DNA of 48,784 bases from Gammaproteobacteria bacterium (GTDB taxonomy: Bacteria > Pseudomonadota > Gammaproteobacteria > UBA5861). Each line of letters opens with the position of its first letter. Positions within the stretch are counted from its first letter, which is position 1. Under the pieces are notes generated by a model, which was not told where the DNA came from, did not search any database, and saw only the letters and a program-made list of their open reading frames with translations. This document shows positions 1,338 to 46,656 of the stretch, one piece after another. Position numbers and translations under genes: made by a program. Location of the stretch: assembly GCA_022360445.1 (NCBI GenBank), contig JAKSCV010000103.1:1-48784 (forward strand), given 5' to 3'.

Positions 1338-1360
1338 GTGGTATGTTCCATCTATATCCT

Positions 1361-1377
1361 ATGTTATAAAATAACAT
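1361..1377. promoter_or_regulatory. Zur box between znuA and zur
   Basis: The sequence atgttataaaataacat is a perfect palindrome of two 7-bp arms (ATGTTAT / ATAACAT) around AAA. It fits the AT-rich GTTAT-ATAAC core of proteobacterial Zur operators. It lies 23 bp from the znuA start and 26 bp from the zur start, in the only intergenic space of the divergent locus, so one bound Zur dimer could repress both directions. The position and the genes on either side make this call strong; no binding data are available. Confidence 0.88.
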
Positions 1378-1403
1378 CTGGGGCAAGGGGATAGAAGCAT
1401 CGA

Positions 1404-4320: not shown

Positions 4321-5100
4321 CTAATCTTTAAAGACAGGTTTGCGCTTTTCTAAGAATGCTGTCACGCCTTCTCGGGTATCTTCTGTCGCAAACAGGAACG
4401 GCATGGCCGCTTTTGCATATGCCATTTCTTCTCCCCCCAGACCGCGGTTGTAGGCCGCTTTTCCAAGCGCCACTGTTAAGCGTGGTTTGGAGGCAATTTT
4501 TTCAGCCAGTGCCATCGTTTCTTTCATAAGATCATCATGTGGGACAACTCGGGTCGCAATACGAAGCCGAACAGCTTCTTCTGCTGAAATAGGTTCGCCC
4601 GTCAGTGAAAGCTCTTTCGCTTTTTGACGACCTACGATTTCTTTTAATCGTACGATCGCGAAGCCGGGCAATAACCCCAAGTCAACTTCCGGTACGCCAA
4701 ACTTGGCTTTGTCAGAAGCAATGACAATATCACTGCCGATCGCTAACTCGAAACCACCACCTAAGGCTAATCCATTGACGGCCGAAATAACCGGTTTAGC
4801 GCATGTCTCGCCAATAGCGAGAACACCTAAAACATCGTCCATGAACTTTTGAGTCGCTTCGGGTGAGAAGTCAAACCCGCTTATATCAGCACCGGCACAG
4901 AAAGCCCGTCCCGATCCGCCAGTAAAAACGATGACCCGAATCTGATCATCTTCCTCCGCTGCCTTTACACCTTCTCTGATGCCTTGTCGGATCCCGGCGC
5001 TCAGAGCATTGAGCTTTGATGGTTCATCAAGGGTCAGGATGGCAATTTTGCCTTTTTTTTCGTAGTTGACACTGCCAAATCGCATAGTCATTGTCTCCAT
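4321..5100 (-). CDS. Enoyl-CoA hydratase/isomerase family protein
   Basis: This crotonase-family protein of up to 259 residues has both catalytic glutamates of classical enoyl-CoA hydratases: E118 in GGGFELA and E138 in VPEVDLGLLPG, the expected 20 residues apart. The oxyanion-hole motif GRAFCAGADISGF is near residue 65. It most likely hydrates 2-enoyl-CoA in beta-oxidation of fatty or related acids; exact substrate unknown. Three in-frame ATGs lie close together (5100, 5091, 5085). A GGAG sits between the first and second and is best spaced for the third, so the protein may begin at 5085 (254 residues). It is transcribed away from the transporter operon that follows. Confidence 0.85.
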   Translation of the reverse strand: METMTMRFGSVNYEKKGKIAILTLDEPSKLNALSAGIRQGIREGVKAAEEDDQIRVIVFTGGSGRAFCAGADISGFDFSPEATQKFMDDVLGVLAIGETCAKPVISAVNGLALGGGFELAIGSDIVIASDKAKFGVPEVDLGLLPGFAIVRLKEIVGRQKAKELSLTGEPISAEEAVRLRIATRVVPHDDLMKETMALAEKIASKPRLTVALGKAAYNRGLGGEEMAYAKAAMPFLFATEDTREGVTAFLEKRKPVFKD

Positions 5101-5541: not shown

Positions 5542-6336
5542 TTGACGGGTGCGGCGGTGCAAAAAGCAGATGATAAGTTGTTGATCTGCGATAATATTGA
5601 ACGCTATTTTGGTGGTTTGAAAGCATTGAGCAATATCTCTATCCACGTAAACCGAGGGGAGATTTTTGGCTTAGTAGGGCCCAATGGTAGCGGGAAAACA
5701 ACTATGGTCAATGCCATCACAGGGTTTTATCCTCCGCAAAGTGGGAAAATAATACTGAATGGCGAAGACATTACTGGCCGAAAGCCCCACGCGATAGCCA
5801 AGATGGGGGTGGCACGAACCTTCCAAAATCTTGCCCTCTTCAAGGGAATGAGCGTCCTGGATAACATTTTATTAGGCCGACATATACATATGAAGCCCAG
5901 TGTATTCGGTACGGCTTTGTACTGGTGGGTTGCTCGCAAGCATGAAGTAAAAAATCGTAAAATTGTTGAAGAAGTGATTGACTTTTTGCAATTGCAAAGT
6001 GCGCGCAATGAGCCAGTTGAGACGATTCCTCTCGGCTTGCAAAAACGTGTCGAGTTGGCACGCGCGCTTGTCGCCGAGCCAAGCTTTCTCGTACTCGACG
6101 AACCCATGGCTGGGATGAATCAGGAAGAAAAAGAATACATGGCCAGGTTTGTCTTGGACGCGCGCGATGAAATGGGGATGACCATCTTCTTGATTGAGCA
6201 TCATATGGATGTTGTCACCGGCATTTGTGACAGGATGGTGGCATTAAGTTATGGTGAACTCTTAGCTGAAGGTATCCCAAAAGATGTGATTGCACATCCA
6301 CGGGTGGTCGAGGCGTACCTAGGGGGAGCTCACTGA
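5542..6336 (+). CDS. LivG-type ABC transporter ATPase, operon 1
   Basis: This 264-residue ATPase belongs to the branched-chain amino acid/amide (HAAT) importer class. Walker A GPNGSGKT is at 46-53, the Q-loop at Q95, Walker B with LDEP at 181-188 and H-loop histidines at 220-221. The ABC signature is unusual: where LivG proteins have a sequence like LSYGEQRR, this has IPLGLQKR (162-169), with proline in place of the serine that contacts ATP in canonical proteins. The start is a TTG with AGAGGGA upstream; the paralogue at 12992 also uses TTG. The next gene begins one base after its stop. It should energise import by the LivH/LivM-type permeases downstream. Confidence 0.88.
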   Translation: MTGAAVQKADDKLLICDNIERYFGGLKALSNISIHVNRGEIFGLVGPNGSGKTTMVNAITGFYPPQSGKIILNGEDITGRKPHAIAKMGVARTFQNLALFKGMSVLDNILLGRHIHMKPSVFGTALYWWVARKHEVKNRKIVEEVIDFLQLQSARNEPVETIPLGLQKRVELARALVAEPSFLVLDEPMAGMNQEEKEYMARFVLDARDEMGMTIFLIEHHMDVVTGICDRMVALSYGELLAEGIPKDVIAHPRVVEAYLGGAH

Positions 6337-6337
6337 T

Positions 6338-8281
6338 ATGACACAGCAAGTGAAAATGGCTGAAGGGACGGCTATTCGGAAAGCAGATTTTTCCAACGAT
6401 ACAACAGTCGTTGGGTTGTTAGCTCGAAATGCCAAAGAAATAGGTAGCCAGGTGGCCCTTAAAGAAAAAGATTTCGGCATATGGCAAGAATATACTTGGC
6501 AGGATTATCTGGATAAGGCGATCTACTTTGCCGCTGGTCTTGAAATCTTAGGGTTTCAGGCTGAAGAAGCGTTGCTGTTGATTGGCGATAACCGCCCTGA
6601 CCTCTATTTTGGAACCGTAGGTGTTTCTGCCTTGCGTGGTAGCCCGATGCCAGCTTATCCTGATGCAAACCCGCAAGAAATATTGAATTTTGCTCATGAA
6701 AGTCGTGTTCGTTATGCGTTCGTTGAAGACCAAGAGCAAGTTGACAAACTCCTTGACCTACGTGAAGACATTGGGACGCTAGAGTACATTATCTATTCCG
6801 ATCCGCGTGGCCTAGCTGCGTACTCTGCACCGGGCCTCACCTCTTATGCCGAGGTGATTGAAAAAGGGCAGCAAGCTATCCAAGCTAACCCTGCCTTGTA
6901 TGACGATTTAGTGAACCGTGCTCAACCAAGTGATGCAGCCATATTTGTCCACTCTTCGGGTACAACGGGTAAACCGAAAGGGGTTATTCTTAAACATCGA
7001 AATGTACTCGCAGGCGTAAGAAATGGTTTTGAAGGCGGTAGCCTTGAAAAAAATGAAGTGATCATGGGCTATTTGCCTATGGCCTGGATTGGTGATTATG
7101 CGTTTACAGTTGCCGCAGGTATCGCATTACAGTGGAAGCTCTGTATTCCTGAACAACAAGAGACACTGCTACGTGATATGAGAGAAATCGCGCCGACGTT
7201 TTATCTGGCGGCTCCTCGGTCCTGGGACAATATGCTCACCAATATCCAAGTAGGTATGCAGGATGCGCCTCGATTTAAAAAGGCGGTTTATCATTACTTT
7301 ATGGATCTTGGATTCAAGGTCGAGAAGAAGCGGTTTGAAGGAAAGGCTCCCTCAATATGGGAACGAATTAACCGGATAGTGGGCGAGTTTTTTGTATATG
7401 GCCCAATTAAAGACGCGATGGGACTGTCGCGGATCCGTACAGCCTACACTGGCGGTGAAGCTATGGGCGAAGACACCTTTCTATTTTATCGGTCACTGGG
7501 AGTCGCGCTCCGACAACTCTACGGGCAAACAGAGAGTAGTGCTTTCAATTCAACGCAATCTGCAGATGAAGTGAGACTGCATACCGCAGGTAAGCCGCTA
7601 CCAGGTGTAACCGTTAAAATTGATGACTCAGGTGAGCTACTGCTGAAATCCGAAAGCAACTTCGAAGGTTACTATGAAAATGAAAAAGCAACAGTAGAAA
7701 CTTTGGTAGATGGATGGCTTCATACCGGTGATGCTGGCTATCTGGAGGAAGATGGGCATATTGTTGTGCTTGGGCGTCTCTCAGAAGTGGTATATACCGC
7801 AAAAGGGGAGCGCTTTATACCAAACTATATCGAAAATAGAATTAAGTTCAGTCCGTATGTGAAAGACGTTGCCGTGTTAGGCCGGGACAGGGATGAACTG
7901 TGTGCCATGGTGTGTATTGATATTGATGCAGTGGGTAACTGGGCAGAGCTTCAAGGTATTTCGTATATATCGTACGCCGATCTTTCTCAAAAACCGGCTG
8001 TGTATGATTTGGTTCGTGATGCGATTGCACATGTCAATGAAACATTGCTCGAGCCACTGCAAATAAAAAGATTTAGTAACCTGCACAAGGAGTTTGATCC
8101 GGATGATGGTGAAATAACTCGTACACGTAAGTTACGCCGGAAAGTGGTTGAAGAACGTTATACAGACGTTATTGAAGCACTTTACAGTGATAAGAAAGAA
8201 ATCACTGTGAAAGCGCAGATTACTTATGATACGGGTGAAACCGGTACGATTGAACGTAACTTGTCCATACGCGAGGTTTAA
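6338..8281 (+). CDS. AMP-forming acyl-CoA ligase (long-chain type), operon 1
   Basis: This 647-residue cytoplasmic adenylate-forming enzyme should join a carboxylic acid to CoA at the cost of ATP. The ATP-binding loop HSSGTTGKPKG is at 205-215, YGQTES at 395-400, and LHTGD with the ribose-binding aspartate (D465) at 461-465; the C-terminal hinge and lysine-rich segment reads GEITRTRKLRRK near residue 605. Length and C-terminal pattern fit the long-chain (FAA1/FadD15-like) group more than short-chain acetyl-CoA synthetases or phenylacetate ligases. It sits between the ATPase and permease genes with one-base gaps, which argues that uptake and CoA activation of one substrate are coupled. The actual acid is not known. 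Confidence 0.88.
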   Translation: MTQQVKMAEGTAIRKADFSNDTTVVGLLARNAKEIGSQVALKEKDFGIWQEYTWQDYLDKAIYFAAGLEILGFQAEEALLLIGDNRPDLYFGTVGVSALRGSPMPAYPDANPQEILNFAHESRVRYAFVEDQEQVDKLLDLREDIGTLEYIIYSDPRGLAAYSAPGLTSYAEVIEKGQQAIQANPALYDDLVNRAQPSDAAIFVHSSGTTGKPKGVILKHRNVLAGVRNGFEGGSLEKNEVIMGYLPMAWIGDYAFTVAAGIALQWKLCIPEQQETLLRDMREIAPTFYLAAPRSWDNMLTNIQVGMQDAPRFKKAVYHYFMDLGFKVEKKRFEGKAPSIWERINRIVGEFFVYGPIKDAMGLSRIRTAYTGGEAMGEDTFLFYRSLGVALRQLYGQTESSAFNSTQSADEVRLHTAGKPLPGVTVKIDDSGELLLKSESNFEGYYENEKATVETLVDGWLHTGDAGYLEEDGHIVVLGRLSEVVYTAKGERFIPNYIENRIKFSPYVKDVAVLGRDRDELCAMVCIDIDAVGNWAELQGISYISYADLSQKPAVYDLVRDAIAHVNETLLEPLQIKRFSNLHKEFDPDDGEITRTRKLRRKVVEERYTDVIEALYSDKKEITVKAQITYDTGETGTIERNLSIREV

Positions 8282-8282
8282 G

Positions 8283-9176
8283 ATGGGATTTGACTGGATT
8301 TTTGCAGGTGAGCTTGCCATTAATGGCGCCTTATCTGGGCTGATGTACAGTTTGATTGGGTTGGGTATTGTGCTTATTTATAAGTCATCCGCAGTGCCTA
8401 ATTTGGCCCAAGGGGCACTGGCGATGCTCGGTGCCTATATTGTTTTGGCCTTTTTTGATGGCATAGGTCTCCCGATGTGGGCAGCGATTCCTCTTGGTAT
8501 GGTCGTTATGTTTGGTGTAGGGACAGGTATTGAGCGCTTCACTCTCAGAAGGATGGCTGGACAACCCATCGTCATGATCCTAATGTTGACGCTGGGTTTG
8601 GATATTTTTTTCCACGCAGTGACGCTGACACTTTGGGGTGGGACAAACCGCTCTTTAAGCTACGGTATTCCAGATGATGCGGTTGAAGTGGCCGGTATGC
8701 TGATCGACTTCACTTACCTTGCCGGTGGCATCATTGCTTTGATTCTTGTGGCTTTCTTTACTTATTTCTTCAAAACCCGGAAAGGTATTGTTTTACGGGC
8801 AATTTCGGATGATCCAGTTGCGTCTTGGTCTGTAGGTATCTCTGTTGAAAACGGTGTAGGACTATCTTGGGCCATGTCCGCGGTCGTGGCGGCTGTTACT
8901 GGTATTGTTTTTGGAGCTATCCAAGGTGTTGATTACACATTGGCGCTGTTGTTACTCAAAGGTATTGCTGTGGCTGTGCTTGGCGGGCTAGATAGTGTGT
9001 TGGGCGCCGTAGTTGCGGGCGTTTTATTAGGTGTTTTAGAAGGTATGGCTTCTGGTTTTCTGGATCCACTTGTCGGTGGAGGAAGTAAAGACTTAGTTGT
9101 CGCAGGGGCTATTATTTTGACCATTATTGTTCGGCCTCATGGCCTGTTTGGTCGCGAAGATATCGAGAGGGTTTAG
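8283..9176 (+). CDS. LivH-type ABC permease, operon 1
   Basis: This 297-residue membrane protein has about eight hydrophobic spans and the LivH-family signature segments LAQGALAMLGAYIVL near residue 41 and a C-terminal ILTIIVRPHGLFGRE. The ATG at 8283, one base after the ligase stop, is preferred over an in-frame upstream codon inside the ligase gene because the family alignment starts here. It should form one half of the permease with the LivM-type protein that follows two bases later. A close paralogue is at 15752. Confidence 0.9.
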   Translation: MGFDWIFAGELAINGALSGLMYSLIGLGIVLIYKSSAVPNLAQGALAMLGAYIVLAFFDGIGLPMWAAIPLGMVVMFGVGTGIERFTLRRMAGQPIVMILMLTLGLDIFFHAVTLTLWGGTNRSLSYGIPDDAVEVAGMLIDFTYLAGGIIALILVAFFTYFFKTRKGIVLRAISDDPVASWSVGISVENGVGLSWAMSAVVAAVTGIVFGAIQGVDYTLALLLLKGIAVAVLGGLDSVLGAVVAGVLLGVLEGMASGFLDPLVGGGSKDLVVAGAIILTIIVRPHGLFGREDIERV

Positions 9177-9178
9177 TT

Positions 9179-10252
9179 GTGTTTTATCGACAAGCAGGTG
9201 TTCACCATTCAAATTACAAGACAGACAGTGCGCTATTTCCAATACCTTTTGATAAGTGGTCCATTTATACCATGCTTGCATTAGGTATATTCGCGCCTGC
9301 TATTTTTGGTAGCTTTGCACTGACGAGTTATTTATTACCTTGGATGATATGGGCGGGTGCTGCCCTTTCACTCAATCTTTTGATTGGTTGGGCGGGCCAA
9401 TTCCACTTTGGGTACGCAGCCGTTATGAGTATTGGTGGCTATACCGCAATTCACGCCACGCTCGCGGGCATTCCCTTTGAAATTGCGCTCATTTTGGCGG
9501 GTTTAATGTCCATGATCGTTGGCGTTATTTTTGGTGCAGCGGCGATGAGGGTAAAAGGCTTATACCTAGCATTGGCCACTTTGGCGATGCAATTCGTTGT
9601 TGACTGGGTTCTGACCCACGTACCTGCGATTGGTGGTGGTGCCTCTGCAACACTTCAGGCACCTGACATGACCCTGTTGGGTTTCAAAATCACAAGTGAA
9701 GTTGGATATTATTATGTTGCATTTGGCTGGTTGCTGCTGGTCACTATTTTCCTTTTAAATATGCGGCGGACTGGCTTCGGCCGAGCACTTGTTGCAGTGA
9801 GAGAAAAAGATTACGCCGCTTCAATTCTAGGTGTCAATAGCTTTTACTTTAAATCTGTGGCATTTGCTGTTTCTTCTTTTATGGGGGGTGTTTCAGGAGC
9901 AATTTTAGTCTTTTGTTTTTATCATGCGGTGACGCCTGAACAGTTCACAGTTAATGTCTCCATTCAGCTTCTCGCGATGGTGATTGTTGGTGGGCTGGGG
10001 AGTATTATCGGAAGCTATTTCGGTGCGGCGTTTATCTTATTATTACCAGGTGCTTTGAATAGTTTAGTTGCTTATGTCAGCGAGTTACTGGGACTGCAAA
10101 TTGGCATCGAAACACTGGCCCACTTACCTAACTTATTTTATGGCATACTCATTATTGGGTTTTTATTATACGAACCGTTGGGGCTTGCCAAAGTGTATGA
10201 CAATATACGTAAGTATTTGATGGTCTGGCCATTTGGTTATTCTAAACGGTAG
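9179..10252 (+). CDS. LivM-type ABC permease, operon 1
   Basis: This 357-residue permease subunit starts with GTG, as its paralogue at 16667 does. It has around ten hydrophobic segments and LivM-family features: SLNLLIGWAGQFHFGYAAVMSIGGY near residue 65, RVKGLYLALATLA near 125 and TGFGRALVAVREKD near 200, the last being the ATPase-docking loop. The C-terminus (YDNIRKYLMVWPFGYSKR) is almost the same in the paralogue and appears particular to this operon type. It pairs with the LivH-type permease in the inner membrane. Confidence 0.9.
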   Translation: MFYRQAGVHHSNYKTDSALFPIPFDKWSIYTMLALGIFAPAIFGSFALTSYLLPWMIWAGAALSLNLLIGWAGQFHFGYAAVMSIGGYTAIHATLAGIPFEIALILAGLMSMIVGVIFGAAAMRVKGLYLALATLAMQFVVDWVLTHVPAIGGGASATLQAPDMTLLGFKITSEVGYYYVAFGWLLLVTIFLLNMRRTGFGRALVAVREKDYAASILGVNSFYFKSVAFAVSSFMGGVSGAILVFCFYHAVTPEQFTVNVSIQLLAMVIVGGLGSIIGSYFGAAFILLLPGALNSLVAYVSELLGLQIGIETLAHLPNLFYGILIIGFLLYEPLGLAKVYDNIRKYLMVWPFGYSKR

Positions 10253-10297
10253 TATTTACTGAGTTTGAACCACAACGACAATACGGGAGTAAATGTG

Positions 10298-11551
10298 ATG
10301 TTGAAAAGAGTCAAGTTATTATTAGCCAGTGCAGCGTGCGCGTTGGCCATTGGGCAGCCGGCATTTGCTGCAGGTGAGCCTGTTAAAATTGCAGGGATTT
10401 ATGATCTATCGAAAGTTTATACTTTCATTTCTCCGCAAATCGCTCAAGGGGCAACAGATTACATCAACTTAGTAAACAGCAGAGGTGGAGTTGAAGGTCA
10501 TCCTGTTATTTACAGCGTGGGTGATCATGGTAATGAGCCTCAGCGAGGAATTGAAGGTTATGAAAAGTTCAAGCGTGAAGGTTACGTATTATTCGATTTC
10601 CTGAGTTCGCCTGTTTCACGTGCCGTTCTTCCACGGGCAATGAAAGATGGTAATCCCATGTTGCAGACATTTGTTGGTCGGGCTGATGCGGTTGACGGCG
10701 ACGTGTTCAATTGGATTTTCCCCATGGCCCCAACCTATTGGGGGCAGGCTGCCAATATCGTCAAATTTATTGAAGACCAGGCCGGTGGTGATGCGAAGGG
10801 TAAAAAAGTGGCCTTTTTGTACCTGGACTACGCTTTTGGACAAGAGCCCATTCCAATTTTAAAAGCATTAGCAGAGAAGAAAGGTTTTGATCTTCAATTA
10901 TTCCCTTATCCTTTGCCGGGTACTGACCAAGCTTCTGCGTGGACAGGAATACGCCGTTATAAGCCAGATTGGGTTGTTCATTGGAGTTTTGCTGGCCTTC
11001 ACGTGATTGCTTCTAAGCAAATGAAGCGTAATAAAATTCCAATGTCTAAGTTCATCTCAGTAAACTGGATTAATGAAGTTGATCTGAAAAACATCGGGCA
11101 TGAACGTGCAAAAGGCTTAAAACGTTCTGAACCTGTTGTTGCAGGTCGGGAACCTGTCATCATTCAGGAAATTCTGAATGAGCTGTATGCTAAGGGTAAA
11201 GGGAGTGGTGATGTAGATAACGTCGGACAGACATACTACAACACTGGTGTTGCGATTTATGCCATTGCGCTTGAGGGTATAAGAAACGCGGTTAAATCGG
11301 GAGCCTCTTTCCCATTGACTCCGGCGGCTGTTAAGGAAGGTATGGAAAGCATCCAAGGATTTGATGTCCATGGCCTCATGCCTCCGGTCAACCTGAGTAG
11401 CAGCAACCACGGTGGTGATGGTAAAACCAGAATCAGTGAATGGGATGGTGAAAAGTGGGTGCCTTTAACTGACTGGTTTGTGGCGGACAGTGACTTGGTT
11501 TGGCAAGAAGTTAAGAAGCACTCAGCTGAGTACGTTAAGTCTGGTAAATAA
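10298..11551 (+). CDS. Periplasmic substrate-binding protein, operon 1
   Basis: This is a Peripla_BP_6/LivJ-type binding protein of 417 residues. The ATG at 10298 is chosen because GGGAG sits 8 bases before it and the product then starts with a regular signal peptide (basic MLKRVK, a hydrophobic core, cleavage after AFA near residue 26). An upstream in-frame TTG at 10265 would place 11 extra polar residues before the signal. It shares family segments with the two binding proteins of operon 2, for example GNEPQRGIE, FGQEPIPI and LPGTDQ, but is more distant from them than they are from each other. It should capture the acid in the periplasm and deliver it to the permeases. Confidence 0.88.
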   Translation: MLKRVKLLLASAACALAIGQPAFAAGEPVKIAGIYDLSKVYTFISPQIAQGATDYINLVNSRGGVEGHPVIYSVGDHGNEPQRGIEGYEKFKREGYVLFDFLSSPVSRAVLPRAMKDGNPMLQTFVGRADAVDGDVFNWIFPMAPTYWGQAANIVKFIEDQAGGDAKGKKVAFLYLDYAFGQEPIPILKALAEKKGFDLQLFPYPLPGTDQASAWTGIRRYKPDWVVHWSFAGLHVIASKQMKRNKIPMSKFISVNWINEVDLKNIGHERAKGLKRSEPVVAGREPVIIQEILNELYAKGKGSGDVDNVGQTYYNTGVAIYAIALEGIRNAVKSGASFPLTPAAVKEGMESIQGFDVHGLMPPVNLSSSNHGGDGKTRISEWDGEKWVPLTDWFVADSDLVWQEVKKHSAEYVKSGK

Positions 11552-11554
11552 ATC

Positions 11555-12343
11555 ATGGATGTTTTAACGCTAAACAATGTAGAAGTTATCTACGATAGTG
11601 TTTTTCTTGCGATTAAAGGTGTTTCGGTCGTAGTGCCTGAGGGGGGTATGGTTGCCCTCCTCGGCGCCAACGGCGCAGGTAAAAGCACCACATTAAAGTC
11701 TATCAGCGGTTTGCTCAAGAGCGAACGTGGCGAGGTTACCCGAGGGGAAGTGACTTTTTTGGGCAAGGAAATTAAACAGATGCCGCCGGCTGAACGTGTC
11801 AAGATGGGTTTGTCCCATGTTTTAGAAGGTCGGCGTGTATTCGAAAACTTAACTGGTGATGAAAATCTGACGGCTGCATCAGCGGTCCACCCTCGTTCAA
11901 ATCAAGCTGAATTAAAGGAAATGGTTTACAACTACTTCCCTCGTTTGGCTGAACGCAGAGACTCCAAATCGGGTTACCTGTCCGGTGGCGAGCAGCAAAT
12001 GCTAGCAATCGGCCGGGCGCTGATGACTCAGCCAAAACTCTTGATGCTGGATGAGCCGAGTTTAGGTCTGGCCCCATTTCTTGTTCACGAAATTTTTGAT
12101 ATTCTCAAAAAGATTAACAAAGAGCAAGGCATGAGCATTTTGGTTGTTGAGCAGAATGCCGCAGCGACTCTTGAGGTTGTTGATCATGCTTACATGATTG
12201 AGAATGGTCGGGTAGTGATGAGTGATACAGCAGAAAAACTCAAATCCAACCCCGATATTCAAGAGTTCTATCTTGGTGGTGGCGAAGCGACGAACTTTCA
12301 TGAGGTTAAGCATTACCGCAGACGTAAGCGCTGGTTGTCCTAA
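11555..12343 (+). CDS. LivF-type ABC transporter ATPase, operon 1
   Basis: This 262-residue ATPase is the second nucleotide-binding subunit. It has Walker A GANGAGKST near residue 33, a canonical signature YLSGGEQQ near 145, and Walker B LLMLDEPSLG. A short repeat, RGEVTRGEVTF, occurs near residue 55. The C-terminus is extended past the usual LivF end by a basic tail with RRRKRWLS. Only one LivF-type gene exists for the two paralogous operons, so it may serve both. It starts 3 bases after the binding-protein stop. Confidence 0.9.
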   Translation: MDVLTLNNVEVIYDSVFLAIKGVSVVVPEGGMVALLGANGAGKSTTLKSISGLLKSERGEVTRGEVTFLGKEIKQMPPAERVKMGLSHVLEGRRVFENLTGDENLTAASAVHPRSNQAELKEMVYNYFPRLAERRDSKSGYLSGGEQQMLAIGRALMTQPKLLMLDEPSLGLAPFLVHEIFDILKKINKEQGMSILVVEQNAAATLEVVDHAYMIENGRVVMSDTAEKLKSNPDIQEFYLGGGEATNFHEVKHYRRRKRWLS

Positions 12344-12368
12344 CGACTAAAAATTAAAACGTTTCTTT

Positions 12369-12395
12369 GGCAAGGGCATACTCGACGCTCTTGCC
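12369..12395 (+). terminator. Terminator-like hairpin after operon 1
   Basis: A 9-bp stem with one G-T wobble (GGCAAGGGC with GCTCTTGCC) and a 9-base loop lies 25 bases after the livF-type stop. The bases after it (ttcttcag) are pyrimidine-rich but not a clean T-run, so it may be a weak intrinsic terminator or an mRNA-end stabiliser. Confidence 0.45.
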
Positions 12396-12493
12396 TTCTT
12401 CAGTCTATCGCAAACTCTTTCGCATACAGCTAGGTGCCCCCTTTTCGGGAAAACGGATCGATCAAAAACAACTCGCTTGAGTCTATTTCTCTT

Positions 12494-12520
12494 TATTGTT
12501 AAGAACCTAGCTTAACAATA
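12494..12520. promoter_or_regulatory. Perfect 10-7-10 inverted repeat between operons 1 and 2
   Basis: Arms TATTGTTAAG (12494-12503) and CTTAACAATA (12511-12520) match perfectly around AACCTAG. It lies 151 bases after operon 1 and 471 bases before operon 2. Length, symmetry and AT-rich arms suit a dimeric repressor operator (for example of a TetR- or GntR-type protein); as RNA it would also form a hairpin, without a good T-run. Which of these it is cannot be decided from the sequence. Confidence 0.5.
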
Positions 12521-12991
12521 ACACTTTTCTTCTACTGTCTTGTCATCTGTTACGTATATTTTTTTGTTGTATTCCAATCGGAATTATCGGCATGTCTAAT
12601 CTCCAATGGGCGCCTCATCGCAGGAAAAGCGGCGAAGATATTCAACACTTGCGATGATTCACGTCATTAACTGGGTGTCGTTTCTGTAAATTACCTGTGG
12701 GACGAGGGATGTCGTCATAACATGTCACTATTGGTTGAACCTTTTTGCGCGATAGATGATTTTAATGAGTTGTCGGCCCATGTTCACATTTTCCTTCTCC
12801 TAAACAGCGGTATGTCCATAAATACTCAGGCTTTTTCTTATTCATCCATGTTTTTATATCTTCCTAATATTTAAATAAACTTGGTTTTTAGGCGGAGCTT
12901 TGATTAGTATTACCTTGCTGATACACAATTAGACTCAGCAGCTAAAAAGCTGGGCATGATAAATAAAAAATATATTTGGAGGAGGTGTGTT

Positions 12992-13783
12992 TTGAACATA
13001 TCCAAGTCAGCAGAGCCACCTAAATTGCTTTCTTGTGAGCAAATAGATCGTTCATTTGGTGGGCTAAAAGCACTCAACGGTGTTTCGTTGAGTGTTTCAC
13101 GAGGCGAGATTTTTGGCTTGGTAGGGCCCAATGGCAGTGGTAAAACGACGATGGTGAATGCGATCACCGGTTTTTACCCTCCAGACGCCGGGAAAGTGAT
13201 TTTTAATGGTCGGGATATTACGGGTATAAAACCCTATCTCATTGCGCGTTTAGGAGTTGCGCGGACTTTCCAGAACCTGGCACTGTTTAAAGGTATGAGT
13301 GTCCTTGACAATATTTTGCTTGGGCGACACGTGCACATGAAACCAGGCGTCTTAAGTACCGCACTTTATTGGTGGATGGCACGGAAAGAAGAAGTAGCTA
13401 ATCGCCAGTTTGTTGAAGAAATCATTGATTTTCTACAACTACAAAGCGCGCGGGATGAACCTGTCGAAACGATTCCAATCGGTTTACAAAAGCGGGTAGA
13501 GCTTGCACGGGCTTTGGTTGCCGAACCTACCTTTTTGATTCTTGACGAGCCGATGGCTGGTATGAATCAGGAGGAAAAAGAATACATGGCCCGCTTTATT
13601 CTGGATGCCCGCGATGAAATGGGTGTGACCGTTTTTCTAATTGAGCACCATATGGATGTCGTAACAGGCATTTGTGATCGAATGATTGCGCTCAGTTACG
13701 GCGAAATGCTCGCCGAAGGTTCGCCCAAAGAGGTCATTACACACCCAAGAGTTATTGAAGCATACCTAGGAGGCTCTCATTAG
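12992..13783 (+). CDS. LivG-type ABC transporter ATPase, operon 2
   Basis: This 263-residue ATPase is the paralogue of the one at 5542, with long identical runs around Walker A and in the region following the Q-loop. The TTG at 12992 is chosen over an upstream ATG at 12956 because GGAGGAGGT lies 5 bases before it and the product then aligns end to end with the paralogue. Walker A is at 45-52. The altered signature is conserved here as IPIGLQKR, so it is not a random mutation. The stop touches the ligase start directly (TAG then ATG). Confidence 0.88.
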   Translation: MNISKSAEPPKLLSCEQIDRSFGGLKALNGVSLSVSRGEIFGLVGPNGSGKTTMVNAITGFYPPDAGKVIFNGRDITGIKPYLIARLGVARTFQNLALFKGMSVLDNILLGRHVHMKPGVLSTALYWWMARKEEVANRQFVEEIIDFLQLQSARDEPVETIPIGLQKRVELARALVAEPTFLILDEPMAGMNQEEKEYMARFILDARDEMGVTVFLIEHHMDVVTGICDRMIALSYGEMLAEGSPKEVITHPRVIEAYLGGSH

Positions 13784-15736
13784 ATGCAATCTGCAAGTTC
13801 CCTTGTTCAAACTGTCGAATCCACCTCACCTAACTTATCTGATGCTAACCTCACTCTGGTTCAACTGGTTGCGCGTAACGCAAATCAGCATGGCGCGGGT
13901 ATTGCGTTCCGGGAGAAGGAACTGGGATTATGGAAAGAGTATAACTGGCAGGATTATTTAGATAACGTAACTTGCCTTGCAGCGGGGTTGGAATCGCTTG
14001 GTTTTCAGCCAGGTGATACGCTGATGGTCATGGGCGATAATCGGCCGAAGCTGTATTGGGCGATGATCGCTGCCGGCGGCCTGAGAGGCAAGGCAATGCC
14101 TGTTTATCCCGATGCAGCACCTGATGAGGTACTGCATTTCTGTAAATTATCTCAGCTGCGTTTTGTGATCGCAGAAGATCAAGAGCAAATTGATAAGCTG
14201 CTGGATTTACGTGAAGAAATTGGCACAATCGAGCATGTCATCTATGTAAAACCGAGAGGCATGCGCAGTTATCAAGTTCCCGGTCTGGTGGGTTATGACG
14301 AATTGATCGAACGAGGCCGTCAACGGTTAGATGCAGATGCTCAACTCCGGGACAGTATCATCAACCGTTCTCGCCCGGAGGATCCGGCGATCTACCTCCA
14401 CTCTTCAGGAACAACTGGGTTACCGAAAGCCATTGTCATACAAAATCGAAGAATTCTTTCAGGCGTTTTGAGCGCCTATGAAGGTGAGCGATTTCGACTG
14501 CATGAAGAAATTATTGCCTATCTGCCTATGGCGTGGGTGGGTGATTTTGCCCTGACAGTTGCTGCGGCAATCGCCTTGAGGTTCACAGTGAATATTCCTG
14601 AAGGCCAGGAAACTGTCTTGCGGGATATGAGAGAAGCCGCTCCCACATTCTATTTGGCAGCCCCGCGCAGTTGGGACAATATGCTCACGACGATGCAGGT
14701 TCGTATGCAGGAGTCGACACCGATTAAAAAGTGGCTTTACGACTTCTTCATGGGCTTAGCCCTTGAGAGAGAGAAGCGGCGCTTTAATTCAGAAGAGCCC
14801 ACCATCATACAAAAACTGCTGAAGCCCATTGGTGAGATCATGGTGTATGGCCCCATCAAAGATAACTTTGGTTTAAGCCGTGTCAAAAATGCTTTCACTG
14901 GAGGTGAGGCCATGGGAGAGGATACTTTCCTGTTCTATCGGGCCTTGGGAATACGGTTAATGCAGCTTTATGGGCAAACCGAAAGCAGTGCTTTTACATC
15001 GACACATCAGGCGGATGAGATTCGGTTGCATACGGTGGGAAAACCGCTGCCGGGTGTCGAAGTCAAAATCAGCGAATCGGGTGAAATACTGGTGCGCTCC
15101 AACAGTGTTTTCGATGGTTATCAAGGAAATGAAAAGGCCACAAACGAGACATTGGTAGATGGCTGGTTGCACACAGGTGATGCAGGTTACCTTGAGGAGG
15201 ACGGACATCTCGTTGTGCTGGGACGGGTTTCGGAGGTTGTTTATACCGCGACAGGCGAGCGCTACATCCCGAACTATATTGAAAACCGAATCAAATTTGA
15301 TCCGATCATTAAGGATGTTGCTGTCTTTGGGCGAGATCGTGATTATCTCACGGCGCTCGTTTGCATTGACCTGGACTCTGTGGGTAACTGGGCGGAGCAG
15401 CATGGCGTTTCTTACATATCCTATGCCGATTTATCCCAGAAACCGGAAGTTCTGGAGCAGGCTCAAAAAGCGCTTGAGCACGTCAATGACGTTTTACCAG
15501 AGGCGCTGAAAATTAAACGTTTTGCGAATTTACACAAAGAGTTCGACCCGGACGATGGTGAAATCACGCGAACACGAAAGTTGCGACGCAAGGTCGTTGA
15601 AGAGCGTTATCAGCCGATTATTGATGCCTTATACGGTGGTCAGTTGGATGTCACAATGCGTGCGCAAGTCACATATGACACAGGTGAATCAGGTTCGATC
15701 GAGCGTATTCTTGCGATTAAAGATTTAAATAGGTAA
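13784..15736 (+). CDS. AMP-forming acyl-CoA ligase (long-chain type), operon 2
   Basis: This 650-residue adenylate-forming ligase is paralogous to the one at 6338 over its whole length. It keeps the ATP loop (HSSGTTGLPKA), YGQTES, LHTGDAGYLEEDGH and the C-terminal GEITRTRKLRRK segment, so it should be active. The loop has LPKAIV where operon 1 has KPKGVI, and the middle region (about residues 300-360, expected near the acyl pocket) differs most by eye, which would allow a different substrate range. It starts exactly after the ATPase stop and should activate the acid brought in by operon 2. Confidence 0.88.
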   Translation: MQSASSLVQTVESTSPNLSDANLTLVQLVARNANQHGAGIAFREKELGLWKEYNWQDYLDNVTCLAAGLESLGFQPGDTLMVMGDNRPKLYWAMIAAGGLRGKAMPVYPDAAPDEVLHFCKLSQLRFVIAEDQEQIDKLLDLREEIGTIEHVIYVKPRGMRSYQVPGLVGYDELIERGRQRLDADAQLRDSIINRSRPEDPAIYLHSSGTTGLPKAIVIQNRRILSGVLSAYEGERFRLHEEIIAYLPMAWVGDFALTVAAAIALRFTVNIPEGQETVLRDMREAAPTFYLAAPRSWDNMLTTMQVRMQESTPIKKWLYDFFMGLALEREKRRFNSEEPTIIQKLLKPIGEIMVYGPIKDNFGLSRVKNAFTGGEAMGEDTFLFYRALGIRLMQLYGQTESSAFTSTHQADEIRLHTVGKPLPGVEVKISESGEILVRSNSVFDGYQGNEKATNETLVDGWLHTGDAGYLEEDGHLVVLGRVSEVVYTATGERYIPNYIENRIKFDPIIKDVAVFGRDRDYLTALVCIDLDSVGNWAEQHGVSYISYADLSQKPEVLEQAQKALEHVNDVLPEALKIKRFANLHKEFDPDDGEITRTRKLRRKVVEERYQPIIDALYGGQLDVTMRAQVTYDTGESGSIERILAIKDLNR

Positions 15737-15751
15737 CGGTGAGGGGATAGT

Positions 15752-16651
15752 ATGGATTTGGATTGGTGGTTTATAGGTGAGCTGATTGTCAATGGCGCAA
15801 ACGCTGGGCTCATGTACTCACTGGTGGCACTGGGCATTGTACTGATTTACAAAGCCTCAGGTGTTGCTAACTTGGCCCAGGGCGCATTGGTGATGACCGG
15901 TGGCTATGTCGTGTTAGCGCTGGCATATGATGCCGGCTTACCCATGTGGTTAGTCATACCCTTGTCGATGGTCATCCTGTTTTTCTTCGGTATGGGCATT
16001 GAACGGGTTGTACTGAGACGAATGGCGGGCCAACCGTTGATTATGATCATCATGTTGACGCTCGGTTTAGAAATATTGCTGCGAGGGATTGTCCCTGCCG
16101 TATGGGACCGAGGGGGCCAGTCACCCATTATTCCGATCACCCTGCCGGCAGATGCCATTTTTATTGGGGATATGCTCATCAACACCTCCTATTTGTTGGG
16201 CGGAGTGATTGCTATTTTCCTGGTGATATTATTTGTCTACTTTTTTCGGACGCGGATTGGTGTGGTTTCGAGAGCGGTTTCCGATGACCCTGTTGCCGCC
16301 TGGTCTGTGGGCATTTCTGTCGAGCGCTCCATTGCCTTGTCCTGGGGGCTGGCGGCTGTTGTTTCTGCCATCGCGGGAGCACTATGGGGGTCTATTCAAG
16401 GGGTGGACTGGACGCTGTCTCTTTTACTCCTAAAAGCCGTGGCCGTGGCGATATTGGGTGGTCTTGACAGTATCATCGGCGCCATCTTGGCAGGATTCAT
16501 GCTCGGGATTGCCGAAAACCTGGCAGCAGGCTTTTTAGATGATATTGTAGGAGGAGGTACAAAGGAGCTGGTTGTCGCGTCGGTGATCTTACTGACTATC
16601 CTGATTCGTCCTCACGGTATGTTTGGTCGTGAAGATATTGAAAGAATATAG
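15752..16651 (+). CDS. LivH-type ABC permease, operon 2
   Basis: This 299-residue, eight-span permease subunit is paralogous to the protein at 8283. Family segments include LAQGALVMTGGYVVL near residue 43, RRMAGQPLIMIIMLTLG near 90 and the end IRPHGMFGRE. A ribosome site (GAGGGGA) precedes the ATG. The spacing to its neighbours is 15 bases on each side, looser than in operon 1. Confidence 0.9.
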   Translation: MDLDWWFIGELIVNGANAGLMYSLVALGIVLIYKASGVANLAQGALVMTGGYVVLALAYDAGLPMWLVIPLSMVILFFFGMGIERVVLRRMAGQPLIMIIMLTLGLEILLRGIVPAVWDRGGQSPIIPITLPADAIFIGDMLINTSYLLGGVIAIFLVILFVYFFRTRIGVVSRAVSDDPVAAWSVGISVERSIALSWGLAAVVSAIAGALWGSIQGVDWTLSLLLLKAVAVAILGGLDSIIGAILAGFMLGIAENLAAGFLDDIVGGGTKELVVASVILLTILIRPHGMFGREDIERI

Positions 16652-16666
16652 CAGTAGGAGATAAAC

Positions 16667-17740
16667 GTGTTTTATAGACAAGCGGCAATTCGTCATACCA
16701 GTTATGACCAGACAAAAAAACTCTACCCGATCCCTTTTGATAAGTGGTTAGTGGTTGCTGTATTACTGGTGGCCTTGCTGGCCCCTTTTATGATGTCGGG
16801 CCTTTATTTGAACTCCTACTTATTACCTTGGGTGATTTGGAGCACCGCTGCGCTTTCACTGAATTTATTGATGGGGTACGCCGGGCAAATTCACTTGGGT
16901 TATGCGGCGGTCATGGCCATTGGTGCCTATAGTTCGGTTCATGCTATGCGCTTAGGTGTCCCCTTTGAGTTTGCACTGATCCTCGGTGGTGCAACAGCGA
17001 TGATTATCGGTGTGGGCTTCGGCTTTACTGCGCTCAGAGTGAAAGGCCTTTACCTCGCGATCAGTACGCTGGCTGTGCAATATTTGGTTGACTGGGTGCT
17101 CACGCATGTGCCGGCGATCGGTGGTGGCACGCAAGCAACCTTGCAAACACCGACTCCGGCATTACTCGGGTTTGAGATTACAACGGACATCGGGCGTTAT
17201 TACCTGGCTTTTGGTTGGTGTGCCTTAGTGACCATTTTTATGTTGAATGTTAAACGTACCGGGCTTGGTAGAGCGCTCATTGCGGTTCGAGAAAAAGACT
17301 ACGCAGCCTCTGTTCTTGGCGTCAATAGCTATTACTACAAACTCATTGCATTTGCTGTCAGCTCTTTTTTTGGTGGGGTTACCGGAGCCATATTAGCCTT
17401 TACTTTTTTTGGTGCAGTGACGCCAGAACAGTACTCGATTGACATCTCCATACAAATTCTTGCAATGGTGGTCGTGGGTGGGTTAGGTAGTGTACTGGGT
17501 AGCTTTTTTGGCGCTGGATTTATCTTACTCGCGCCTCTGTTTCTCAATAATATGGTCACGGGCATGGCGGAAGCCTATGACTTTGGAGTCTCAAGGTCCA
17601 TCCTTTCCCATATTCCCCTGATTTTATACGGTGGCTTAATCATGCTCTTCCTGCTATTCGAGCCATTGGGGTTGGCCAAAATATACGACAATATTCGAAA
17701 ATACTTTTTGGTATGGCCCTTTGGGTTTTCCAGGCGATAA
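16667..17740 (+). CDS. LivM-type ABC permease, operon 2
   Basis: This 357-residue permease is exactly as long as its paralogue at 9179 and also begins with GTG (AGGAG 8 bases before). It shows about ten hydrophobic spans, SLNLLMGYAGQIHLGYAAVM near residue 65, RVKGLYLAISTLA near 125 and the docking loop TGLGRALIAVREKD. The C-terminus again ends in a WPFGFSRR motif. It should form the membrane channel with the LivH-type subunit. Confidence 0.9.
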   Translation: MFYRQAAIRHTSYDQTKKLYPIPFDKWLVVAVLLVALLAPFMMSGLYLNSYLLPWVIWSTAALSLNLLMGYAGQIHLGYAAVMAIGAYSSVHAMRLGVPFEFALILGGATAMIIGVGFGFTALRVKGLYLAISTLAVQYLVDWVLTHVPAIGGGTQATLQTPTPALLGFEITTDIGRYYLAFGWCALVTIFMLNVKRTGLGRALIAVREKDYAASVLGVNSYYYKLIAFAVSSFFGGVTGAILAFTFFGAVTPEQYSIDISIQILAMVVVGGLGSVLGSFFGAGFILLAPLFLNNMVTGMAEAYDFGVSRSILSHIPLILYGGLIMLFLLFEPLGLAKIYDNIRKYFLVWPFGFSRR

Positions 17741-17786
17741 AACGCTTTCTAATTTTTATAAAAGTGAGTTTGTAAGGAGGATAAAG

Positions 17787-19028
17787 ATGTTCAAGAAACA
17801 ATTGCTTACACTGATGCCGGCTGTTTTGCTTATCTTTGCGGGTAATGCAATCGCGGCAAAAGAGCCGATTAAGTTTGGTTTAACACTGGACTACACCAAA
17901 GCCTATGTATTTGCAACGCCTTCATTTGGTCAAGCGATCGAAGATTATGTGAAGTACGTGAATATGAAAGGCGGTATTGATGGGCACCCGATTGAGTTGC
18001 TTAATAGTGACCATGGCAATGAGCCTCAACGAGGCATTGAAGCTTACGAACGTAAGAAGCGCGAAGGTGCGATTGCGTTTGAGCACTTGAGTACGCCTGT
18101 TTCAAAAGCCGTTTTGCCAAAGGCAATGAATGATAAAGTGGTGATGATGCAAATGTTAACAGGGCGTGCGGATGCTGCAGACGGCGAAGTGTTCCCTTAT
18201 ATTTTCCCAGTAAGCCCAACGTATTGGGCGATGGCGGCAAACATCATCCAATACATTGCTGAAAGCGTTGATGATATCAAGAAAGCAAAAGTTGCGTTCA
18301 CGTACCTTGATTACCCCTTTGGCCAGGAACCTATCCCAATTTACAAAGCTTTAAGTGAAGAATTGGGTTTCGAATTAAAGCTTTTCCCCATTTCATTGCC
18401 GGGCACAGATCAGTCCGGCGTTTGGAGTAATATCCGCCGTTTCAAGCCAGATTATGTGATTTCCTGGAGTTTTGCCCAGTTACATAACATTGCCATGACG
18501 GAGATGAAACGTAACCGGATACCGGTTGATAAATACATCTCTGTGATTTGGATCAGTAAGAATGATCTAAAGTCGTATGGCTTTGAAAAGGCGAAGGGAG
18601 TCAAGAGGGTCGAAGGTGTTGTGACGGGTACAGACAGCCCGATTGTCCAGGATATATTGAAGACACTTTATGACACCGGTCAAGGGTCAGGGCCGCGTGA
18701 AAACGTTGGCTTGCTCTATTACATGGCCGCTTTTACCGAGATGGTTACCGTCGTTGAAGGTATGCGCTTAGGACTGGAAAAATACGGTGCGCCTTTAACA
18801 TCGGAGAAGCTGAAAATGGGGTTGGAATCGCTCAAAGGCTTTGATGCCAAGGGTTTGATGGCACCTATTACCATTACACCGGCTGACCACCAGGGTGGGG
18901 GGCAAACCCGTATCGCTGAATGGGATGGTAGTGAATGGGTCCCTCAAAGCGATTGGAATGCGGCTTACAGTGACCTCGTCTGGCGAGTGATTAAAGAGCA
19001 CTCAACAAAATATAAGAGCGGTCAATAG
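17787..19028 (+). CDS. Periplasmic substrate-binding protein A, operon 2
   Basis: This Peripla_BP_6-type protein has 413 residues from the ATG at 17787, which has a strong AAGGAGG 7 bases upstream. An in-frame codon at 17721 would start inside the livM-type gene and is rejected. The signal peptide is MFKKQ plus a hydrophobic core, with cleavage after AIA near residue 24. Segments such as PIKFGLTLDYTKAYVFATPS, SDHGNEPQRGIEAYERKKREGA and LPGTDQSGVW are shared with the binding protein at 19192. An intrinsic terminator follows 24 bases after the stop. Confidence 0.88.
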   Translation: MFKKQLLTLMPAVLLIFAGNAIAAKEPIKFGLTLDYTKAYVFATPSFGQAIEDYVKYVNMKGGIDGHPIELLNSDHGNEPQRGIEAYERKKREGAIAFEHLSTPVSKAVLPKAMNDKVVMMQMLTGRADAADGEVFPYIFPVSPTYWAMAANIIQYIAESVDDIKKAKVAFTYLDYPFGQEPIPIYKALSEELGFELKLFPISLPGTDQSGVWSNIRRFKPDYVISWSFAQLHNIAMTEMKRNRIPVDKYISVIWISKNDLKSYGFEKAKGVKRVEGVVTGTDSPIVQDILKTLYDTGQGSGPRENVGLLYYMAAFTEMVTVVEGMRLGLEKYGAPLTSEKLKMGLESLKGFDAKGLMAPITITPADHQGGGQTRIAEWDGSEWVPQSDWNAAYSDLVWRVIKEHSTKYKSGQ

Positions 19029-19052
19029 TATAGGAGAGTGATTGATAGTTAT

Positions 19053-19080
19053 AAAAAGGTTGGAAATGTCCAACCTTTTT
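19053..19080 (+). terminator. Intrinsic terminator between the two binding-protein genes of operon 2
   Basis: A perfect 12-bp stem (AAAAAGGTTGGA with TCCAACCTTTTT) with a 4-base AATG loop ends in a run of five T and lies 24 bases after the stop of binding protein A. Because the stem starts with A5 and ends with T5 it could work in both directions. It should end most transcripts of operon 2 before the next binding-protein gene, or protect the mRNA end upstream. Confidence 0.8.
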
Positions 19081-19191
19081 ATTGGTGACTTCGACTCTTC
19101 AGAACCCTTATAGGTGGCACAAGCGTATGGCTGTCCAGACCAAGAGTAATTTTTTGAAGATGTCTAGTGAATAAAAACCATGGAGATGAGA

Positions 19192-20430
19192 ATGAAAAAA
19201 TCATTAGCTGTATTAGTTTCTATTTTGATAACTTTTTCAGGTACTGCATTGTCTGATGAAAAAGCACCGATCAAATACGGGCTGACGCTGGACTACACGA
19301 AGTCTTATGTCTTCGCGACTCCTAGCGTTTCTCAGGCTATCGAGGATTACCGGAACTACCTGAATGCAAGAGGAGGGATTAACGGTCATAAACTTGAGAT
19401 ACTGAACAGTGATCACGGTAATGAGCCACAGCGTGGCATTGAAGCCTACGAGCGCAAAAAGCGGGAAGGCGCTATTGTTTTTGAACACTTCAGTACACCT
19501 GTCTCCAAAGCGGTTTTGCCAAAAGCAATGAAAGACAAAAATGTTATGCTACAGACGTTGACAGGACGATCAGACGCCGCAGATGGTGAGGCTTTTCCCT
19601 ATGCGTTCCCAATAGCCCCTACGTATTGGGCGATGGCAGCCAACATTATTCAGTATATTGAAAACAACACGAAAGATATCAAGAAAGCGAAAATTGCCTT
19701 TACTTACCTAGACTTTCCTTTTGGACAAGAACCGATACCTGTCTTACAAGAGCTGCAAAAGCAACTTGGTTTTGAGCTGAAGCTATTTCCCATAGCCTTG
19801 CCCGGCACTGATCAGTCCGGCGTATGGAGCGGTATTCGCCGATTTAAACCGGATTATGTTGTCGCGTGGAGCTTCTCAGCCCTGCACAACATTGCACTGA
19901 CTGAGATGACACGTAATCGGATTCCCCTTGAAAAGTATATTTCTGTGGTGTGGGCCAGTCGTTTGGATTTGAAGTCTTTCGGCTATGAGCGAGCGAAAGG
20001 CGTTAAGCGGGTTGAGGCAGTGGCCACTGGCACGGAAATACCCATTATCCAAGAAATTTTGAAAGCGTACGACGCAGGGAAAGGCGCGGGTCCACGAGAA
20101 AATGTTGGTACGATCTACTACATGGGCGGTATTGCTGAAATGAGTATACTTACTGAAGGGGCAAAACTTGCACTGAATGAATTCGGCGCACCTTTAACGG
20201 GAGAAAAGCTTAAAAAAGGTTTGGAAATGATTCGGGACTTTGATGCCAATGGGCTTATGGCGCCGGTCACGATCACCAGTAGCGATCATCAAGGGGGCGG
20301 AAAAACTCGCATCTCGGAGTGGGACGGTGAAAAGTGGGCGCCTGTTACAGATTGGGAAGCCGCTCACGAAGAGCTCGTCTGGAAGACGATCAAAGAGCAC
20401 TCAGCAAAGTTCACCAAAGAAAATCAGTAA
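19192..20430 (+). CDS. Periplasmic substrate-binding protein B, next to operon 2
   Basis: This third Peripla_BP_6-type protein has 412 residues from the ATG at 19192, which has GGAG 6 bases before it; in-frame ATGs at 19180 and 19186 would add four or two residues. The signal peptide is MKKSLAVLV plus a hydrophobic core, with cleavage near ALS-DEK. It is a close paralogue of the protein at 17787, with many identical runs, so a recent tandem duplication within operon 2 is likely. It sits beyond the terminator at 19053-19080 and may have its own promoter or depend on read-through. No permease gene follows, so it should feed the operon 2 or operon 1 permease. Confidence 0.87.
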   Translation: MKKSLAVLVSILITFSGTALSDEKAPIKYGLTLDYTKSYVFATPSVSQAIEDYRNYLNARGGINGHKLEILNSDHGNEPQRGIEAYERKKREGAIVFEHFSTPVSKAVLPKAMKDKNVMLQTLTGRSDAADGEAFPYAFPIAPTYWAMAANIIQYIENNTKDIKKAKIAFTYLDFPFGQEPIPVLQELQKQLGFELKLFPIALPGTDQSGVWSGIRRFKPDYVVAWSFSALHNIALTEMTRNRIPLEKYISVVWASRLDLKSFGYERAKGVKRVEAVATGTEIPIIQEILKAYDAGKGAGPRENVGTIYYMGGIAEMSILTEGAKLALNEFGAPLTGEKLKKGLEMIRDFDANGLMAPVTITSSDHQGGGKTRISEWDGEKWAPVTDWEAAHEELVWKTIKEHSAKFTKENQ

Positions 20431-30997: not shown

Positions 30998-31053
30998 CGT
31001 TTGGCTCTCCTAACAGTTAAAATGTGCGAAGTGATTGTTTCGCTTTTGCGTCT

Positions 31054-31083: not shown

Positions 31084-31127
31084 CGGCAGGAATAGTTCAT
31101 TCTATACGGTAATTTAACGAACGGTTG

Positions 31128-32776: not shown

Positions 32777-32785
32777 GAGGTGCCA

Positions 32786-46588: not shown

Positions 46589-46613
46589 GGCCAAAAGATA
46601 AGGCCTTTTTGGC
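46589..46613. repeat. Hairpin upstream of carboxylase beta gene
   Basis: GCCAAAA (46590-46596) pairs with TTTTGGC (46607-46613) around a 10-base loop. It covers the upstream in-frame TTG at 46609, making that codon a poor start, and lies 43 bases before the preferred ATG at 46657. It may be part of the leader or an old terminator-like structure; function is unknown. Confidence 0.35.
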
Positions 46614-46656
46614 ACCGATGAGTTATGAAATTAAACAAGTTAAAAGAGTGTTATTG

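Follow-up and report, generated by a model that had tools for sequence, protein, structure and literature searches.

Acyl-CoA Ligase Genes Within Two Tandem Liv-Type Importer Operons, and a Conserved Basic Tail on Their LivF

Why should an acyl-coenzyme A (CoA) ligase be encoded among the genes of a Liv-type importer? Transporters of this type are routinely annotated as branched-chain amino acid importers. Here, we consider two head-to-tail operons on the + strand, at 5542-20430 of a 48,784-nucleotide stretch of gammaproteobacterial DNA (assembly GCA_022360445.1, contig JAKSCV010000103.1; this whole stretch is “the window”), in which the question arises twice. As judged from the genes and their relatives, each operon likely encodes an ATP-binding cassette (ABC) importer of the hydrophobic amino acid uptake transporter (HAAT) type that would carry a carboxylic acid, together with a dedicated ligase that would activate this acid with CoA.

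What Do the Two Operons Encode?

Operon 1 (5542-12343) runs in the order LivG, ligase, LivH, LivM, binding protein, LivF, and operon 2 (12992-20430), which lacks LivF, in the order LivG, ligase, LivH, LivM, and two binding proteins. Families were assigned by Pfam and NCBIfam. The likely true starts of LivH1, SBP1, LivG2, and SBP2 were chosen by ribosome-binding-like sequence together with homology, and the beginning of the longest open reading frame (ORF) is given beside them. The genes are:

5542..6336, + strand: LivG1, ATPase of operon 1, TTG start (ABC_tran plus BCA_ABC_TP_C)
6338..8281, + strand: ACS1, acyl-CoA ligase within operon 1, 647 residues (AMP-binding plus AMP-binding_C_3; motifs, catalytic Lys)
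8283..9176, + strand: LivH1, permease, ATG 8283, longest ORF from 8226 (PF02653)
9179..10252, + strand: LivM1, permease (PF02653)
10298..11551, + strand: SBP1, periplasmic binding protein with signal peptide, ATG 10298, longest ORF from 10265 (PF13458)
11555..12343, + strand: LivF1, ATPase, the sole LivF of both operons (ABC_tran, LivF-like; own-genome search)
12992..13783, + strand: LivG2, ATPase of operon 2, TTG 12992, longest ORF from 12956 (ABC_tran plus BCA_ABC_TP_C)
13784..15736, + strand: ACS2, acyl-CoA ligase of operon 2, 650 residues (AMP-binding plus AMP-binding_C_3; modelled ANL fold)
15752..16651, + strand: LivH2, permease (PF02653)
16667..17740, + strand: LivM2, permease (PF02653)
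17787..19028, + strand: SBP2, binding protein, ATG 17787, longest ORF from 17721 (PF13458; structure model)
19180..20430, + strand: SBP3, second binding protein of operon 2 (PF13458; 69% identical to SBP2)

Both operons hold two BPD_transp_2 permeases and a Peripla_BP_6 binding protein, the combination by which we recognise a HAAT importer. The pair of LivG and LivF ATPases is complete in operon 1; operon 2 has no LivF, and the nearest one in the genome is LivF1. The two units are not identical, since LivF occurs only in the first and a second binding protein only in the second. The original prediction, made from the sequence of this stretch, described a five-gene order (ATPase, ligase, LivH, LivM, binding protein) occurring twice in a row. 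Both sets are present in this order and on the + strand, at the positions listed, but LivF (11555-12343) and SBP3 had been omitted. That account also did not mention that operon 2 has no LivF or that LivF carries the tail described below.

The gaps in the first copy had been put at 0 to 2 bases. This holds among the first four genes of operon 1 (LivG/ligase, 1; ligase/LivH, 1; LivH/LivM, 2). LivM and the binding protein are separated by 45 bases and the binding protein and LivF by 3. The corresponding gaps in operon 2 are 0 (LivG/ligase), 15 (ligase/LivH), and 15 (LivH/LivM). A fixed stoichiometry had also been read from this spacing, which short gaps cannot show.

Operon 2 contains one further element, between its two binding protein genes:

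19051..19082, + strand: strong hairpin with flanking A and T runs (fold -17 kcal/mol)

A simple scan did not pick up this hairpin, which may be a terminator or attenuator. Given its position between SBP2 and SBP3, the level of SBP3 may therefore differ from that of the rest of the operon.

How Closely Is the Ligase Tied to the Importer?

The permease family has 22 matches in this genome; going by the neighbouring ATPases, we assign these to nine systems of the Liv type and two of the sugar type. The ligase gene is found inside five of the nine Liv-type systems, and these five genes are the only ones of their type in the genome.

The same arrangement extends to other genomes. A search with one genome per species gave at least 536 confirmed relatives of the ligase, and gene neighbourhoods were taken from the best 80. 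The ligase adjoins Liv genes in every one of these 80, which come from several phyla. It adjoins LivG in 79; in the other (L068, at a contig end) it stands before LivH, LivM, and LivF. There are two main gene orders: LivG-ligase-LivH-LivM in the clade of the window ligases (49-62% identical), and ligase-LivG-LivH-LivM-SBP-LivF at about 40-44% identity. Resemblance to linked ligases was the criterion by which the best 80 had been picked, and the outer members of the family were therefore examined on plasmids. Plasmid-borne members down to 28-30% identity are still within Liv operons, and ligase relatives at 23-29% identity from Rhodococcus, Photobacterium, and Paraburkholderia were found outside them.

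The linkage of ligase and importer is old and conserved. We define these systems as the ligase-linked HAAT subgroup; in the window the ligase is among the Liv genes in both operons, and a tailed LivF is present in operon 1.

What Distinguishes the Linked LivF?

When linked and unlinked subunits were compared, LivF alone was found to have a substantial block that is confined to linked systems:

12293..12340, + strand: LivF1 C-terminal tail, residues 247-262, NFHEVKHYRRRKRWLS (linked-only block conserved in 79 LivF)

Linked LivF proteins are about 20 residues longer than usual and end in VKHY[RK]RRKRWL[SA], with VKHYRRRKRWL as a near-invariant core. Over the 79 linked LivF, the conservation of the tail is 0.76, compared with 0.72 for the LivF body. 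Four of the four linked LivF in this genome have the tail and none of the four unlinked ones does; the 14 unlinked LivF examined from ligase-bearing genomes end without it.

A DNA pattern for YRRRKRWL occurs in 14 of 274 genomes of the class, always at the end of LivF, and the reversed pattern, used as a control, matched in five. The ligase (E below 1e-70) is present in 23 of the 274, including 13 of the 14 pattern genomes (Fisher p 2.6e-15, relatedness uncorrected). In the exception, G061, the tail belongs to an SBP-LivF-PaaK-like operon that is truncated on its other side by the end of the contig. Ligase genomes that do not match the strict pattern mostly carry variants of it, namely YKRRKRWL, RRWKKKKNWR, or, in distant members, YHRRKP or YHRRRP. 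A linked LivF was looked for in G094 and G214 and none was found.

The tail offers a simple sequence mark for a large group of systems that probably import and activate carboxylic acids. If this is true, the predicted substrates would change for many importers of Alpha-, Beta-, and Gammaproteobacteria, including importers encoded on plasmids of algae-associated marine bacteria. It is also a short peptide, which allows a direct test of physical coupling between import and activation.

What Kind of Ligase Is Encoded?

The ligase matches the marks of ANL acyl-CoA ligases: a PF00501 domain, an SGTTG P-loop, YGQTE, TGD, and the catalytic Lys, which is kept in 104 of 106 aligned ligases. Structure models had been proposed as a check for both ligases and binding proteins; the ACS2 model has the ANL fold, with a predicted local distance difference test (pLDDT) score of 90. 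Two stretches of ACS2 deserve mention:

15533..15562, + strand: acidic loop, HKEFDPDDGE, just before catalytic Lys 599 (linked-ligase conservation)
15635..15727, + strand: C-terminal beta-hairpin extension, residues 618-648 (predicted; no Pfam match)

The acidic loop (DPDD or DHDD) is conserved in linked ligases and absent from four non-linked controls. The extension, of approximately 30 residues and predicted to be a beta-hairpin, is found in 94 ligases; the controls and the remotest of the linked ligases do not have it. We considered this hairpin as a universal docking partner and rejected it as the sole one, since two linked ligases, those of contigs C56 and C34, have no hairpin and are nevertheless accompanied by a tailed LivF.

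What Might Be Imported?

According to the original prediction, HAAT transporters are usually tied to amino acids or amides. This is overstated. HAAT binding proteins of Rhodopseudomonas palustris bind benzoates, coumarate, and fatty and dicarboxylic acids, and CoA-ligase genes lie nearby (PMC3223731), so that uptake of free acids by this class is already known.

The model of SBP2 (pLDDT 92.6) has 4ru0 as its closest fold (Z 50.5), followed by 3eaf, 3lkb (valine), and 4n03, the last of these deposited as a fatty-acid ABC binding protein. Naming a substrate from this fold was tried and rejected, since it does not single out a ligand: the nearest structure is 31% identical and has a title without a ligand, and below it amino-acid and aromatic-acid binders score alike.

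A second clue comes from LivJ of Escherichia coli K-12, in which Glu226 holds the amino group of the ligand. In a single remote profile alignment, 43 sequences have I, V, N, or W at the position of Glu226, beside an invariant Trp, and 36 of the 43 have an Arg in the stretch aligned with the ligand site. With a non-acidic residue at the Glu226 position and an Arg near the ligand site, the ligand can tentatively be described as having a carboxylate and no amino group.

Genomic context is also worth consulting. In relatives, the operon has as neighbours genes for acyl-CoA dehydrogenases, hydratases, thiolase, CoA transferases, and electron transfer flavoprotein (Etf). A CYP153 alkane hydroxylase gene accompanies it in Polaromonas, methylcrotonyl-type carboxylases are near it in some relatives, and B12 acyl-CoA mutases, for which the nearest relative of known structure is 2-hydroxyisobutyryl-CoA mutase, are also found nearby; these mutases hint that the substrates may be branched or tertiary acids. 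A PaaK-like ligase is encoded in 50 of 93 loci examined, mostly directly after LivF, and not in the window. The genome itself has about ten carboxyltransferase genes of the methylcrotonyl/geranyl-CoA type, an unusual number. Because of this catabolic, mutase, and carboxylase context, aliphatic or branched acids are indicated. The evidence points to a class and not to one compound: the substrate is probably a hydrophobic carboxylic acid, either aliphatic or branched.

Overall, the earlier proposal that a free acid is imported and then activated with CoA stands in part, with the conserved linkage, the adenylation motifs, the clusters of beta-oxidation and CoA-thioester genes, and, tentatively, the non-acidic anchor position in its favour.

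Some of the loci deserve a separate record. On plasmids of Xanthobacter, Diaphorobacter, and Roseovarius (L137, L142, and L163), linked Liv operons adjoin genes for B12-dependent acyl-CoA mutases. Plasmid catabolic islands of marine Roseobacter and Nitratireductor (L131-L135) have the fixed order SDR-LivG-ligase-LivH-LivM-LivF-SBP-SBP-ECH-ECH-EtfB-EtfA, in which SDR is a short-chain dehydrogenase/reductase and ECH an enoyl-CoA hydratase.

How Does This Compare with Known Systems?

In R. palustris, the HAAT binding proteins RPA3723-3725, for fatty and dicarboxylic acids, are encoded beside pimFABCDE, which includes the PimA ligase, and the substrate ranges of binding and ligation agree (PMC3223731). 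The operons described here resemble that system in their acyl-CoA ligase and, in operon 2, in having more than one HAAT binding protein per transporter (PMC3223731), but the R. palustris ligase is in an adjacent operon, whereas here it is inside the transporter operon. The hba and RPA1789 (coumarate) systems also have HAAT binding proteins near CoA ligases (PMC3223731); they take aromatic acids, in contrast to the aliphatic or branched ones that are probable here, and have the ligase outside the transporter operon. LivJ/LivK-LivHMGF of E. coli is alike in subunit make-up and fold, but its ligands are amino acids, it has no ligase, and its Glu226 aligns, in the one remote alignment, with a non-acidic residue here.

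These operons differ from the known acid HAATs in the embedded position of the ligase gene, which is conserved across phyla, and probably in the tail of LivF. We found no description of the embedded-ligase operon or of the tail in the literature, where open-access publications were searched.

How Different Are the Two Copies?

Protein identity between operons 1 and 2 is 82% for LivG, 61% for the ligase, 60% for LivH, and 62% for LivM. SBP1 is 52-54% identical to SBP2 and SBP3, which share 69% with each other. In a tree of 94 ligases, ACS1 and ACS2 are sisters (Shimodaira-Hasegawa-like approximate likelihood ratio test, SH-aLRT, 95) with branches of about 0.62 each, and the tandem duplication is therefore old.

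The original prediction placed the divergence of the ligases in their middle region, and this proved partly right. The differences are spread over the N-terminal 350 residues, with 34-62% identity in 50-residue windows, except around the conserved residues 249-324 (70-76%); past this half, identity is 60-90%. The whole tandem is present in a genome of the same genus at 95-99% protein identity, with a ratio of nonsynonymous to synonymous substitution rates (dN/dS) of 0.01-0.07 for all twelve genes. Both copies are under purifying selection.

LivG1/LivG2 gives the largest positive residual among 210 pairs, which is suggestive of a shared LivF, no more. The conservation of LivG was rejected as proof of such sharing, given the broad scatter and the values of up to 79.8% among pairs that have diverged to a similar degree.

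Could Import and Activation Be Coupled?

In the mechanism that we propose, SBP1 would deliver the acid to LivH1/LivM1, and SBP2 and SBP3 would deliver to LivH2/LivM2. The single LivF would most likely be common to both transporters, pairing with LivG1 or LivG2. The neighbouring ligase would convert the incoming acid to an adenylate and on to a CoA ester, thereby trapping it, and the ester would feed enzymes of the beta-oxidation type. We further infer docking of the ligase on the transporter by way of the basic tail of LivF (VKHYRRRKRWL), which may contact the acidic DPDD loop of the ligase, with channelling of the acid. That a widespread importer physically carries its ligase on the LivF tail, making import and CoA activation a single coupled event, is a tentative suggestion, to which we give rather less than an even chance.

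If true, the docked ligase-importer would be an ABC-driven counterpart of vectorial acylation. In the FadL/FadD pathway of E. coli, activation with CoA at the membrane drives uptake without an ABC importer; our proposal shares uptake driven by CoA activation at the membrane and differs in having an ABC importer. The peroxisomal ABCD transporter CTS has been reported in one complex with LACS6/7, transport being followed by CoA esterification (PMC4900756). Here the likeness is in the way of working and not in kinship (PMC4900756): unlike the importers of the window, CTS belongs to another ABC class, has no binding protein, and has acyl-CoA cleaved in transit.

Which Other Explanations Should Be Considered?

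Several points weigh against import of an acid with activation by the ligase. The fold comparison scores binders of amino acids and binders of acids alike, the comparison with LivJ is one remote profile alignment, and operon 2 has no LivF. The neighbours in the window include only two genes for hydratases and one for a FabK-like reductase; a complete pathway is not adjacent. In addition, the LivF tail could serve regulation and not docking. This would fit a carboxylic acid importer and a ligase that are co-regulated and uncoupled, the ligase being the first catabolic enzyme, free in the cytoplasm, and the tail serving some other purpose, for instance, membrane contact or feedback control by the acyl-CoA product. 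We put this at only slightly under an even chance: operon linkage alone would explain co-expression, the neighbouring genes are catabolic, and some linked ligases have no C-terminal hairpin though their LivF keep the tail. What it leaves unexplained is that the ligase is fixed inside the transporter operon when other pathway genes are not, and that the tail accompanies this family of ligases whatever the gene order. It is much less probable that amino acids or amides are imported and the ligase acts on a deaminated product, for example, the branched-chain acid from leucine. LivJ/LivK do belong to the HAAT family, 3lkb (valine) is among the closer folds, and methylcrotonyl-type carboxylases and a LiuC-like hydratase are near some members; yet the acidic anchor is absent at the LivJ Glu226 position in the alignment, most annotated relatives have no neighbouring aminotransferases, and CYP153, CoA-mutase, and PaaK-like neighbours suit free acids.

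A different issue is whether the copies handle different acids, as had been suggested, or are unspecialised, both serving one substrate as redundant or dosage copies. The latter seems to us unlikely, though it has something to recommend it: one LivF would serve both, the LivG copies are 82% identical, the C-terminal halves of the ligases are 60-90% identical, and in relatives a single transporter set has two or three binding proteins. Against redundancy stand the age of the split (branches of about 0.62 each), the concentration of divergence in the N-terminal half of the ligase and in the binding proteins, and the purifying selection that keeps both copies.

What Else Lies in the Window?

Four further genes may bear on the substrate or on the pathway:

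4321..5100, - strand: enoyl-CoA hydratase family gene, divergent from operon 1 (PF00378)
3468-4259, + strand: crotonase, alone upstream of operon 1 (next-best family gamma-carboxygeranoyl-CoA hydratase, LiuC/AtuE-like)
20501-21496, - strand: flavin enzyme, FabK-like (Pfam label nitronate monooxygenase)
46609-48264, + strand: carboxyltransferase beta gene, methylcrotonyl/geranyl-CoA type

Counterparts of the 4321-5100 hydratase, 64% identical, occupy the same place beside the operon in L051 and L062, and the gene is likely a pathway partner of operon 1. The window hydratases were also considered as the hydratase pair of the plasmid islands and rejected, at 23-30% identity only; the link is that of 4321-5100 with L051 and L062 alone. 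For the flavin enzyme, we rejected the identity of nitronate monooxygenase, as it is nearer to FabK enoyl reductase. Genes similar to it adjoin other ligase-linked Liv operons.

At 393-3411 are zinc uptake genes (ZnuA, a Fur-family regulator, an ATPase, and a permease), which are ordinary. Finally, 30128-33769 on the - strand encodes a sigma-70-family factor (RpoH-like), FtsX, an FtsE-like ATPase, and an FtsY-like GTPase, in an order that resembles the one beside livJ in E. coli.

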